This document shows positions 16,244 to 31,582 of a stretch of DNA of 64,000 nt, one piece after another. The position numbers were made by a program, and so were the translations under genes. Source of the stretch: Thermococcus sp. 4557 (GTDB lineage: Archaea; Methanobacteriota_B; Thermococci; Thermococcales; Thermococcaceae); contig NC_015865.1 of NCBI RefSeq assembly GCF_000221185.1, forward strand, positions 744,001 through 808,000, given 5' to 3'. The notes below the pieces were generated by a model. That model did no database searches, was not told the origin of the DNA, and worked only from the letters and a program-made list of their open reading frames with translations. How positions within the stretch are numbered: the first letter of the stretch is position 1; each line of letters opens with the position of its first letter.

Positions 16244-16378
16244 CTTCCCTTCCATTTTTCTTACTGCCTCTTTTGCACAGGCGAACAAACTTTTGAAAAA
16301 AGTTTGATCAAAAGATTGCCTTTCCTGCCAACGGGTAAAAAGTCAGTCATGCACTAATAGATTTGGCAATTCTTGAGT

Positions 16379-16488
16379 GAGTTTACTCCCCAAGCAAGCA
16401 CCTTCAGGTAGTTTCAAACTTATTTTGGCGTCCAAAGGACGCCGTTGGGAGTGAAACCCTCTTCAAAGAGCAAATTACACAGAAACTC
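16379..16488 (+). repeat. Triple-nested stem element, copy 1
   Basis: Three helices are nested around one centre: outer GAGTTT (16379-16384) with AAACTC (16483-16488); middle GTTTCA (16411-16416) with TGAAAC (16452-16457); inner GGCGTCC (16427-16433) with GGACGCC (16437-16443), loop AAA. Two further copies (17034-17148, 31328-31436) keep the same plan. The strand is set by the T-rich left side. It may be a structured RNA or a DNA cruciform element. Confidence 0.65.
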
Positions 16489-16531
16489 GCTTAAAAATTG
16501 GCAACTTCAAAAAAGCACTTAATTTCCGCCA

Positions 16532-16553
16532 ACGCTTTGCGAAGCAAAGGGTT
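16532..16553 (-). repeat. Hairpin downstream of tRNA-Thr
   Basis: CAACG-CTTTGC-gaa-GCAAAG-GGTTG forms a near-perfect stem directly beyond the 3' end of the tRNA gene. An equivalent hairpin with different stem bases follows tRNA-Cys (31482-31505), so the pairing is conserved more than the sequence. It could be a trailer or termination structure. Confidence 0.5.
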
Positions 16554-16560
16554 GATAGAA

Positions 16561-16637
16561 TGGAGCCCCGGGCGGGATTTGAACCCGCGACCGGCGGATT
16601 ACAAGTCCGCCGCCCCACCAGGCTAGGCTACCGGGGC
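16561..16637 (-). tRNA. tRNA-Thr (TGT)
   Basis: Cloverleaf on the reverse strand: acceptor GCCCCGG/CCGGGGC, discriminator T, and encoded CCA. The anticodon stem-loop is GGCGGACTTGTAATCCGCC with anticodon TGT, and the T arm is GCGGG-TTCAAAT-CCCGC. No intron. A TATA box (AACTTTATATTTTCC on the reverse strand, 16657-16671) places the transcription start at the mature 5' end. Confidence 0.95.
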
Positions 16638-16859: not shown

Positions 16860-16937
16860 GGGCCCGTAGCTCAGCCTGGTCAGAGCGCGCGGCTCATAAC
16901 CGCGTGGTCGGGGGTTCAAAGCCCCCCGGGCCCACCA
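16860..16937 (+). tRNA. tRNA with CAT anticodon (elongator Met or Ile2)
   Basis: 78-nt cloverleaf with acceptor GGGCCCG/CGGGCCC, discriminator A, and encoded CCA. The anticodon loop is CTCATAA on a CGCGG/CCGCG stem. It lacks the three G:C pairs expected in the stem of initiator tRNA. The GGGCCCG acceptor with A73 resembles tRNA-Ile, so it may be the Ile2 tRNA whose C34 is modified to agmatidine, rather than elongator Met. Sequence alone does not settle this. Confidence 0.9.
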
Positions 16938-16939
16938 TT

Positions 16940-16972
16940 GAAACTTTGCGCAAGCAAAGTTTCATCAAAAAG
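16940..16972 (+). repeat. Hairpin repeat with TCAAAAAG tail
   Basis: GAAACTTTGC-gcaa-GCAAAGTTTC is a perfect 10-bp stem starting three bases after the CCA of the CAT tRNA, followed by ATCAAAAAG. Related copies lie at 16286, 17213 (opposite orientation), 30808 and 31239. Confidence 0.6.
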
Positions 16973-17033
16973 TTCTGACTGTGTTTGGTGCTGTGCCCTT
17001 GAAGTCGTGCGATATTTTAACTCCATTCTCAAG

Positions 17034-17148
17034 GGGGTTTAACTCTCGAATAATCCTCTTCAAGCAGTTTCAACCTTGTTATTGGCGTCCTTCGGACGCC
17101 GTTTGAAGAGTGAAACACTCAAAGAGCGCAATTAGAAGAGTAAACCCC
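17034..17148 (+). repeat. Triple-nested stem element, copy 2
   Basis: Outer helix GGGGTTTA (17034-17041) with TAAACCCC (17141-17148), extended by CTCT with AGAG. Middle helix GTTTCA (17067-17072) with TGAAAC (17111-17116). Inner helix GGCGTCC/GGACGCC (17084-17100) with loop TTC. An alternative pair, CTCTTCAA with TTTGAAGAG, competes with the middle helix. The outer helix sequence differs from copy 1 but still pairs. Confidence 0.65.
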
Positions 17149-17212
17149 AACAGAATCACCCGTTTAAAGTGCACGAAGTTTTTTCAGGCTTTTAACCAGT
17201 AAAAACATTTTT

Positions 17213-17238
17213 GATCAAACTTTGCTCTGCAAAGTTTC
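17213..17238 (-). repeat. Hairpin repeat, reverse orientation
   Basis: On the reverse strand this reads GAAACTTTGC-aga-GCAAAGTTTGATC followed by AAAAA: the same hairpin-plus-tail unit as at 16940, with a three-base loop. It lies in non-coding sequence between nested element copy 2 and the rpo promoters. Confidence 0.55.
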
Positions 17239-29427: not shown

Positions 29428-29492
29428 ACAATCACCCCCAGGTGGTGTCAGCCTGACGTGCACTCATCATCTTCAGTGGGATGGAGTGGTCA

Positions 29493-30761
29493 TCATCCAC
29501 CTGCTTTCTCTCTGTTGAGGCGGTATAAATTCTTTCCGAGCCACTCGTCTAAAGTTTTCTGCCTCGCCAAGCTGCCAAGTATATAGCTCCTGGCGAGGTA
29601 CTTCTCAAACGGGTGTTCAAGGCGCCTCCTTACGGCGTCGAGCGCTTCATTGAGCGTCTCAAACCTGCCAATGAGATTACCCATCGCCTTCTTCACCCCG
29701 AGGCGAATCTGCCAGACGCCAACCGGTGCGTAGTACTCGGGGGTGACCTCCCTGAAGACAACGGCCCTCGCCTGCCTCCTTCTCTCCCGCAGGGCTTCGA
29801 GGACGCTTAAACGGGCAGCGTGATATGCGCCGGCGGTTTCCTTGACGTACTCCTTCCTCCCGCGGAAGTCCTCGTAGTCGTGGATTACACTCGGCTCGCT
29901 CGCACCGAAGAGAGACCCCTTAAGCCAGACCTCCAGAAGCTCAAAGGCGTAGCTTTCCGGCATGAGCAGAACGACGTAGTGGTTGCCGAGGAAACGGTAG
30001 AAGTAGACCTCGTAGTCGTTTATCTCCGGGTTGTGCAGAATCTCGCGCCGCAGGTTCTTGCCTATCGTATCCTGAACTGCCGTAATGCTCCACCTCGTTG
30101 GGACGAGCCTTTTGTCCAGGCCCAGAAGACCGGCGGAGAGGAGCCTTATGATGTAGTACTCGTCGAAGCCCCAGTTATAGAGGCGCATTATCGCCGCTTC
30201 CGCCTTCAGCTCGTCACTAACGACGTAGTCAGTCCTCCTCGGAATGCGGGGATTCTCCGTGAGTTCAAAATCTAAAAGTTCCGCCTTCGGCCCGATAGGC
30301 GGTGCAAACTCGCTCGGGAGGACTTTGAGAACGGGCTTCCTCTTGAGGAGAATCTCGCTGTCAACGGGCTTTATAGACATCGCCAGCTCCTGAACCTCGT
30401 CGAGGATCCTGCCGCTCCGTCTCACGTGGACGTCCGCCTTCGTCTCACCCATGACGAGGAGGGAGCGGTAGTAGAGGATGTCTCTTATCGTTTTGTTCTC
30501 CCATTTAAGCGGGTTGTCGAGGTAGTCAGTCTTCCCCTCGATGGGCGGAACAAGGGGGCCGATTCTAACCTTCGGATAGCCGTACTCCCCAACGAAGATG
30601 CTCGGCGGCGAGGAGCCAAAGAGGTGGCGTTTGTTCAGTCTCTGCTCGACGGTGCGGGCTACTCTAAACCTCTCAAGAATCGGACAGGTTGGCCTGCCGC
30701 AGAGGAGCTTTCTGCCCTTGCAGATCGCACAGAGTTTCGAGTTGAAGACCGGGGCGCTCAT
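29493..30761 (-). CDS. nreA: DNA repair protein NreA
   Basis: 422-aa Nre-family protein. It has an N-terminal zinc-binding motif (CAICKGRKLLCGRPTCPI) and a C-terminal PCNA-interacting peptide (QKTLDEWLG). Members interact with PCNA and protect against DNA damage in Haloferax. Start ATG at 30761 has no Shine-Dalgarno, but a TATA box (CATAAATACC on the reverse strand, centred near 30788) lies 27 bp upstream, so the message is probably leaderless. Longer N-terminal frames would include that promoter. Confidence 0.9.
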   Translation of the reverse strand: MSAPVFNSKLCAICKGRKLLCGRPTCPILERFRVARTVEQRLNKRHLFGSSPPSIFVGEYGYPKVRIGPLVPPIEGKTDYLDNPLKWENKTIRDILYYRSLLVMGETKADVHVRRSGRILDEVQELAMSIKPVDSEILLKRKPVLKVLPSEFAPPIGPKAELLDFELTENPRIPRRTDYVVSDELKAEAAIMRLYNWGFDEYYIIRLLSAGLLGLDKRLVPTRWSITAVQDTIGKNLRREILHNPEINDYEVYFYRFLGNHYVVLLMPESYAFELLEVWLKGSLFGASEPSVIHDYEDFRGRKEYVKETAGAYHAARLSVLEALRERRRQARAVVFREVTPEYYAPVGVWQIRLGVKKAMGNLIGRFETLNEALDAVRRRLEHPFEKYLARSYILGSLARQKTLDEWLGKNLYRLNREKAGG

Positions 30762-30807
30762 CGAAGGTAAGGTAAACGGGGAGGTATTTATGGTTTGTTG
30801 CGAGCAA

Positions 30808-30836
30808 CCTTTGCTTGCGCAAAGCTTGACCAAAAG
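30808..30836 (+). repeat. Hairpin repeat with TTGACCAAAAG tail
   Basis: CTTTGC-ttgc-GCAAAG stem followed by CTTGACCAAAAG. It lies upstream of the nreA promoter. It has the same unit as the copies at 16286, 16940, 17213 and 31239. Confidence 0.55.
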
Positions 30837-30933
30837 TTTGTGATTCGTTGTGAGGCTTCGTTATAGAAGGGATTTCAAGCCCAATCTAGGCCCTTAGACA
30901 GTTGGGTCGGCGAAAATAAGCTTTTTCCACGTT

Positions 30934-30983
30934 GGGTTCTACTTGAACCGCGCTCCAAAGGAGCGCCAAAAACGCTTGAACCC
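30934..30983 (-). repeat. Possible degenerate nested stem element, copy 4
   Basis: On the reverse strand: GGGTTC, an 11-base T-rich spacer, inner stem GCGCTCC/GGAGCGC with loop TTT, a 10-base spacer, then GAACCC. The plan and spacer lengths match copies 1-3, with both helices changed in a compensated way. The outermost helix is not evident, so membership is tentative. Confidence 0.45.
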
Positions 30984-31154
30984 TCCTGAAAACTCCTCCC
31001 GGAATGAATACCCTTTCTACCCAAAAAGTGGTCCTTGAAGAAATCCACTCCAGAACACGCTTTTCAAAAGGAATCATATCATTAATCAAACCCTGCAAGA
31101 CCGTCGCCCCTTGCGTCGAACAAAGCTCGACGTCGCGCAGACGAAATTTTGGAG

Positions 31155-31231
31155 GTGTGGGGGCGTTAGCCCCCCGGAGTTTTAGAGAAAACGGGGTTGT
31201 GGGGCGTAGCCCCACTCCGGGGGTTTGAGAG
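31155..31231 (+). repeat. Tandem GC-rich hairpin units
   Basis: Unit 1: GGGGGC-gtta-GCCCCC followed by CCGGAGTTTTAGAG. Unit 2: GTGGGGC-gta-GCCCCAC followed by TCCGGGGGTTTGAGAG. The two share flanks and stem-loop design and look like a diverged tandem duplication of about 40 bp. Confidence 0.55.
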
Positions 31232-31238
31232 TACAGAG

Positions 31239-31265
31239 CAAGCTTTAACAAAGCTTGACCAAAAG
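31239..31265 (+). repeat. Hairpin repeat with GACCAAAAG tail
   Basis: CAAGCTTT-aac-AAAGCTTG stem followed by ACCAAAAG. It is a further copy of the dispersed hairpin-plus-tail unit. Confidence 0.55.
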
Positions 31266-31327
31266 AGTTCCCTTCCTTTTTAAACTGCTATAAATAGAGC
31301 GTGCGCTCTAAACTCTGCCTATGAAGG

Positions 31328-31436
31328 GGTTTAAATTTAAAACAAGCCATTAATCAGGTTTCACTTTTATTCTGGCGTCCGGTGGACGCCTTGTGGGGAG
31401 TGAAACGCTGTAAAAGTAGCAATTGGAGCGTAAACC
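31328..31436 (+). repeat. Triple-nested stem element, copy 3
   Basis: Outer GGTTTA (31328-31333) with TAAACC (31431-31436); middle GTTTCA(CT) (31358-31363) with (AG)TGAAAC (31401-31406); inner GGCGTCC/GGACGCC (31374-31390) with loop GGT. The segment between the middle and outer 3' arms (AGCAATTGGAGCG) is close to that of copy 2 (GCGCAATTAGAAGAG). It lies 72 bp from the 3' end of tRNA-Cys. Confidence 0.65.
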
Positions 31437-31481
31437 ACGTAGAAAACAATCGTTGTTAGAATTGCACGCAGTTTTTCCGTC

Positions 31482-31505
31482 AACGCTTTCGTTAGAAAGG
31501 GTTGA
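31482..31505 (-). repeat. Hairpin downstream of tRNA-Cys
   Basis: CAACG-CTTTC-gtta-GAAAG-GGTTG, just beyond the 3' end of tRNA-Cys. It matches the hairpin beyond tRNA-Thr (16532-16553) in flanks, while the inner stem has changed on both sides. Confidence 0.5.
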
Positions 31506-31507
31506 GG

Positions 31508-31582
31508 TGGAGCCGGGAGGGGGATTTGAACCCCCGTAAAGCGGATCTGCAGTCCACCGCCTCGCCTCTAGGCTATCCCGGC
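31508..31582 (-). tRNA. tRNA-Cys (GCA)
   Basis: 75-nt cloverleaf on the reverse strand: acceptor GCCGGGA/TCCCGGC, discriminator T, and encoded CCA. The anticodon loop CTGCAGA gives GCA. The T arm is GGGGG-TTCAAAT-CCCCC. It follows tRNA-Ser by 21 bases on the same strand and has no separate promoter, so it is probably processed from the same transcript. Confidence 0.95.

Follow-up and report, generated by a model that had tools for sequence, protein, structure and literature searches.

The window, by which we mean the whole 64,000-nucleotide stretch analysed here, bases 744001-808000 of the genome, holds three type-A copies of a nested palindromic cassette, which are listed with their neighbouring features in Table 1. 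Copy 3 lies behind tRNA-Cys, and copies 1 and 2 are likewise found beside tRNA 3' ends, those of tRNA-Thr and tRNA-Met, as an earlier note on this DNA had claimed. The nested stems which that note described for copy 3 were recovered in the sequence, namely the outer GGTTTA (31328-31333) and TAAACC (31431-31436), the middle arms GTTTCACT (31358-31365) and AGTGAAAC (31399-31406), and the GGCGTCC-GGT-GGACGCC core, and the end of the tRNA gene at 31508 is 72 bp from the stretch they span. That stretch is real, but it is too small to mark the limits of the element. Six genomic copies align far beyond the reported stems, so that 31328-31436 represents the inside of a larger unit of approximately 266 bp, which has terminal hairpins and a further outer stem. 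This outermost internal stem is kept in the six-copy alignment, yet is absent as a stem from the minimum-energy fold of copy 3. The nested inverted repeats of copy 3 around GGCGTCC/GGACGCC comprise a GCGTGC/GCACGC-like pair, TGGTTTA/TAAACC and the middle arms. Terminal hairpins were found in all three copies. All three are placed on the minus strand by the family model, copy 2 being oriented oppositely relative to its tRNA, and copy 2 folds into one end-to-end nested hairpin (z -5.3, equalled by 0 of 200 shuffles). Furthermore, there are inverted end sequences, near TGATCAAAGTTCGTGATTC in many units, and in many genomes they occur as plus/minus pairs approximately 235-240 bp apart, with zero such pairs in the reversed control.

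Table 1. Cassettes, their parts and neighbouring features in the window.
Feature	Coordinates	Strand	Remarks
Full type-A cassette (copy 3)	31239-31504 (266 bp)	minus	Six-copy alignment, coordinates, fold z -3.8, orthologous G032 tail without type A
tRNA-proximal terminal hairpin, CAACCCTTTCTAACGAAAGCGTTG	31481-31504	minus	Starts 3 nt after tRNA-Cys CCA
Distal terminal hairpin, CAAGCTTTGTTAAAGCTTG	31239-31257	minus	
Outermost internal stem	31297-31471	minus	Arms near 31462-31471 (GCGTGCAA) and 31297-31308 (GAGCGCACGC)
Stretch of the earlier note, outer GGTTTA/TAAACC and middle arms GTTTCACT/AGTGAAAC	31328-31436	minus	
Central hairpin, GGCGTCC-GGT-GGACGCC	31374-31390	none	Compensatory changes across 103 copies
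tRNA-Cys (gca), host gene of the tail	31508-31582	minus	
Adjacent GC-rich repeat (CCCCGGAGTGGGG / GGGGGCTAACGCCCCC)	31151-31238 (approximate, by eye)	minus	Recurs in other tails
Second cassette, type C	30805-31150 (approximate, by eye)	minus	Core GCGCTCCAAAGGAGCG at about 30950-30967; near-identical unit in G032 tail
Copy 1, type A	16286-16554	minus	Behind tRNA-Thr (16561-16637, minus)
Copy 2, type A	16939-17237	minus	Reversed relative to host tRNA-Met (16860-16937, plus)
C/D guide RNA sR7 (RF01310)	29446-29500	minus	Overlaps ends of adjoining reading frames; unrelated to cassettes

In the window the core hairpin pattern was counted three times (0.01 expected), and in the genome six times (0 in the reversed control). 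A covariance model was built on the 128-nt core and includes no tRNA sequence. It detected about 20 loci (7 strong, 2 intermediate and approximately 10 weaker) in the 2.01-Mb single-contig genome and gave matches at E up to 0.01 in 57 of 61 genomes of the same genus. Across the family, the cassettes are abundant in genus g1 and sparse in g4-g6, and the model found none in the sampled g2 genomes or in the single g3 genome. Exact matches to the core pattern in the named genome collection were confined to Thermococcaceae records. Cassettes measure approximately 270-300 bp and stand singly or in short tandem arrays with a period of approximately 290 bp; related types built on an equal plan around other cores (GACGCC, GCGCTCC) sit in other tails. 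The tails of tRNA genes also contain a distinct GC-rich repeat (AACGAAAGACAAGGGGGCTCC in some of them, CCCCGGAGTGGGG...GGGGGCTAACGCCCCCACACCCCCA), as at 31151-31238 of the window and at loci L164, L130 and L150, and repeats of this type can precede a cassette.

The earlier note had held that the location of the copies beside tRNA genes was not random. To map copies against tRNA 3' ends, we used 108 distinct copies (19 from the own genome and 89 from other genomes, chosen by score) and measured how far the model start lay from the closest facing tRNA or sR36 3' end, sR36 being a C/D guide RNA. Across own and related genomes, 65 of the 108 lay within 135 nt of such an end, 48 of them at 57-68 nt, behind 22 tRNA species and sR36, and the other 17 at 71-135 nt. 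A further 3 were found at 136-300 nt, 24 at 330-430 nt and 3 at 431-700 nt. Only 13 had no tRNA or sR36 3' end within 700 nt, so most copies do not lie away from tRNA genes and the claimed placement is upheld; the full length of the unit, the arrays, the other cassette types and the hosts that are not tRNAs had escaped that reading. The 24 copies at 330-430 nt are mostly second units of tandem arrays. At 335-360 nt, 16 of 17 copies come second to a cassette that begins at the CCA, which identifies the 290-bp period as stacking, and the remaining one lies behind a second tRNA. The placement is also one-sided, with 87 copies having their left end on the 3' side, 5 their right end on the 3' side, and 3 standing at 5' sides.

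One could suppose that the repeats are untargeted and persist only in what little spacer a dense genome leaves free, tRNA tails included. Insertions into genes would indeed be lost, and a few copies do sit at other intergenic sites, but the distance peak is approximately 12 nt wide and one-sided. A null with a generous 100 kb of spacer DNA predicts 0.8% of copies at 57-68 nt against the 48 of 108 seen; this comparison assumes independence, which orthologous copies lack, and its formal chance value is therefore overstated. No such assumption underlies the narrow peak shared by 22 tRNA species, and we find survival in spacers very improbable.

Hosts extend beyond tRNA genes. Six copies stand behind sR36, four of them with a spacing of 57-60 nt. 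Some host sites are not known RNA genes (the L010 group and L027/L048/L111). At L010, L039, L068 and L075, a conserved, GC-rich, hairpin-capable stretch ending in CCCCCCTTACA is directly upstream of the element and may be a guide RNA that lacks annotation; two unexplained host sites, L010 among them, had no Rfam match at E up to 1. In G003, two of the 13 distant copies (L120, near 1410, and L123, near 1413, in the orientation of the element) abut a CRISPR repeat truncated at the identical base; six more repeats lie behind it at one locus, and the other locus has the solo repeat only. At L116, one of the 13 distant copies, the cassette adjoins what appears to be a tRNA 3'-half only, possibly an attachment-site copy, hinting that the 3' part of a tRNA alone is enough as a host.

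As integrases of Thermococcales use tRNA genes (PMC8371274, PMC2718504), the cassettes might be remnants of integrase-type elements with tRNA genes as their attachment sites. However, att-type integration is unsupported in the 18 own tails compared, where the tRNA 3' segment is not duplicated distal to the cassette and the longest match is 6-9 nt, against approximately 7 nt after shuffling. A viral or plasmid origin was also rejected, with no core-pattern match in viral contigs and no match in plasmids. Such an ancestry seems to us barely credible.

The tails of three orthologous tRNA genes (Cys, Met and Thr) were then compared between relatives whose tRNA regions share 92-99% identity, so that the evidence for turnover consists of differences between species. 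Near relatives have different cassettes, stacked cassettes, relics or none at these loci. Behind tRNA-Cys stand type A here, C and A in G004, C in G011 and another type in G002; G032 has the CCCCGGAG repeat and the same C without A, G027 has a relic only, and the more distant G022 has no cassette. At the tRNA-Met tail, the own genome and G027 have a reversed A, G032 and G002 have B types and G011 has C, all followed by the same flank (89-94% identity among relatives). The tRNA-Thr tail varies in like manner. Within single genomes, near-alike copies stand behind different RNA genes. In G058 such copies share 93% identity over 294 nt; in G003 two-unit arrays match at 85% over 574 nt, and the match stops at a terminal hairpin. 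Judged from these alignments, a tail whose occupant changes between close relatives points to a mobile or exchangeable element, apparently undescribed.

Recombination between tRNA tails is a serious rival for how the copies spread. The cassettes would then not transpose, and would be swapped or duplicated among tails by homologous recombination or gene conversion, with tRNA genes, hairpin ends or adjoining repeats supplying the homology. Transfer requiring no mover would suit dispersed similar sequences such as tRNA genes, at which Thermococcales chromosomes are known to recombine (PMC5495485). It would also suit the matching two-unit arrays behind different G003 tRNAs, and the changes in the Met tail, where both tRNA and flank stay constant, could be read as exchanges of what lies between them. 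Nevertheless, left junctions fall 2-9 nt after the CCA whatever the tRNA sequence, sR36 and the CRISPR repeat serve as hosts without homology to tRNA, and the distal flanks of the Met tail are unchanged, making long conversion tracts unneeded. On balance, we think it unlikely that recombination alone distributed the cassettes.

The arms of the cassettes also bear on whether the fold acts in DNA or in RNA. RNAalifold on 103 copies kept only six pairs, all in the core hairpin, probably because the outer arms vary too much in sequence and position to be folded column by column. In each of 98 copies the two arms were therefore aligned with one another, under a scoring that treated GU and AC mismatches equally. 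The real arms scored better than a shuffled arm in 94 of these copies, and the mismatches were GU in 65 cases and AC in 53 (p 0.31), compared with 6 and 0 in tRNA acceptor stems from the same data, a small control. That the arms are complementary without an excess of GU over AC is better explained by a palindrome in the DNA, or by arms kept alike through homogenisation, than by selection on one RNA strand, and so favours a DNA rather than an RNA structure. A role at the RNA level, for instance in terminating tRNA transcripts, in signalling 3'-trailer processing or as a small RNA, would accord with the unvarying spacing behind RNA genes, with an orientation that is mostly the same, and with the compensatory changes in the core hairpin. 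Yet a cassette starts 2-9 nt after the CCA in only about 19 of the 39 distinct tRNA tails of the own genome (counted by eye), the same tRNA in near relatives is followed by different types or by none, and Rfam gave no match at gathering level, nor at E up to 1 over 30800-31510. With the GU counts as they are, given the small tRNA control, we set aside the one-strand RNA hypothesis and hold functional RNA elements to be improbable.

Beyond the observations on how the units are built, where they sit, how they stack and how they turn over in close relatives, we consider it probable that these are foldback cassettes of a non-autonomous kind that strongly prefer small-RNA 3' ends, served by a trans-acting mover and lost by deletion. 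The unit of approximately 270-300 bp, bounded by two terminal hairpins and bearing inverted end sequences and nested inverted repeats round a GC-rich central hairpin, has its home in the DNA right behind small-RNA genes, mainly tRNAs of many species, 2-9 nt after the CCA. A putative recombinase or transposase acting in trans would recognise the hairpins at the unit's ends or the strand in its folded form, and may be steered to RNA-gene 3' ends as harmless insertion sites. Loss would proceed via deletion between the ends, leaving short relics. A more specific proposal, which we put forward tentatively and hold to be doubtful, is that a dedicated and so far undescribed Thermococcus recombination system places nested-hairpin cassettes, in ordered arrays, at small-RNA 3' ends (tRNA, C/D guide RNA and perhaps the trailer end of CRISPR arrays), recognising the end of the RNA gene or its product and not a common sequence. 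As to candidate movers, mobilisation by Y1/RAYT transposases is not supported, as the Y1 gene is absent from the own genome and from the copy-rich G010, with matches in 15 of 61 genus members. No parent autonomous transposon with the same ends appeared among the end-sequence pairs listed, and no target-site duplication was evident by eye at the junctions, whose limits are uncertain by several bases.

According to the 2009 genome paper, Thermococcus gammatolerans has no transposase genes, and Thermococcus genomes are repeat-poor yet fast-rearranging (PMC2718504); tRNA genes have been implicated in chromosome inversions in Thermococcales (PMC5495485). Palindromic cassettes at tRNA tails throughout the genus would mean that abundant dispersed repeats stand beside these inversion-linked genes, and would prompt one to ask which factor can recognise small-RNA 3' ends almost regardless of the gene. 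The open-access literature, with subscription papers outside the search, contained no description of the cassette family, which we provisionally regard as undescribed.

Several known systems share part of this picture. Integrative elements that use tRNA genes through archaeal tyrosine recombinases (PMC8371274) have the same home site, but the cassettes stay outside the tRNA, lack an att duplication and carry no genes. The repetitive non-coding RNA loci sRk48 and sRk52 of P. abyssi are reported to be related to the 3' ends of OrfB (IS607-type) genes, with 1-6 copies per genome and a conserved RNA fold (PMC3124441). They are also repetitive intergenic loci of Thermococcales, and sRk52 adjoins a tRNA gene; the cassettes are set apart from them by the published description, not by sequence. 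REP/BIME sequences with their RAYT (Y1) transposases are, like the cassettes, palindromic, extragenic and sometimes arrayed, whereas cassette units are approximately ten times longer and are maintained in two genomes without the Y1 gene. The tRNA-targeting retrotransposons of yeast and Dictyostelium insert into a fixed zone beside any tRNA gene, a harmless home, which they find via the RNA polymerase III apparatus, and they encode reverse transcriptase. The cassettes share the preference for such a zone, but nothing like RNA polymerase III targeting or a reverse transcriptase was seen for them. MITEs and foldback intergenic palindromes (ERIC-like and NEMIS/Correia-like) are small, non-coding and dispersed, with inverted ends and whole-unit folding, and vary between close relatives. 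The cassettes resemble them in every one of these respects, having terminal inverted repeats and being dispersed within a genome and polymorphic between relatives. They differ in their fixed distance behind many tRNA 3' ends and their stacking in arrays; neither a parent transposase among the end-sequence pairs listed nor, by eye, a target duplication at the junctions was found. We rate the cassette as a foldback or MITE-like repeat with an unusual home site.
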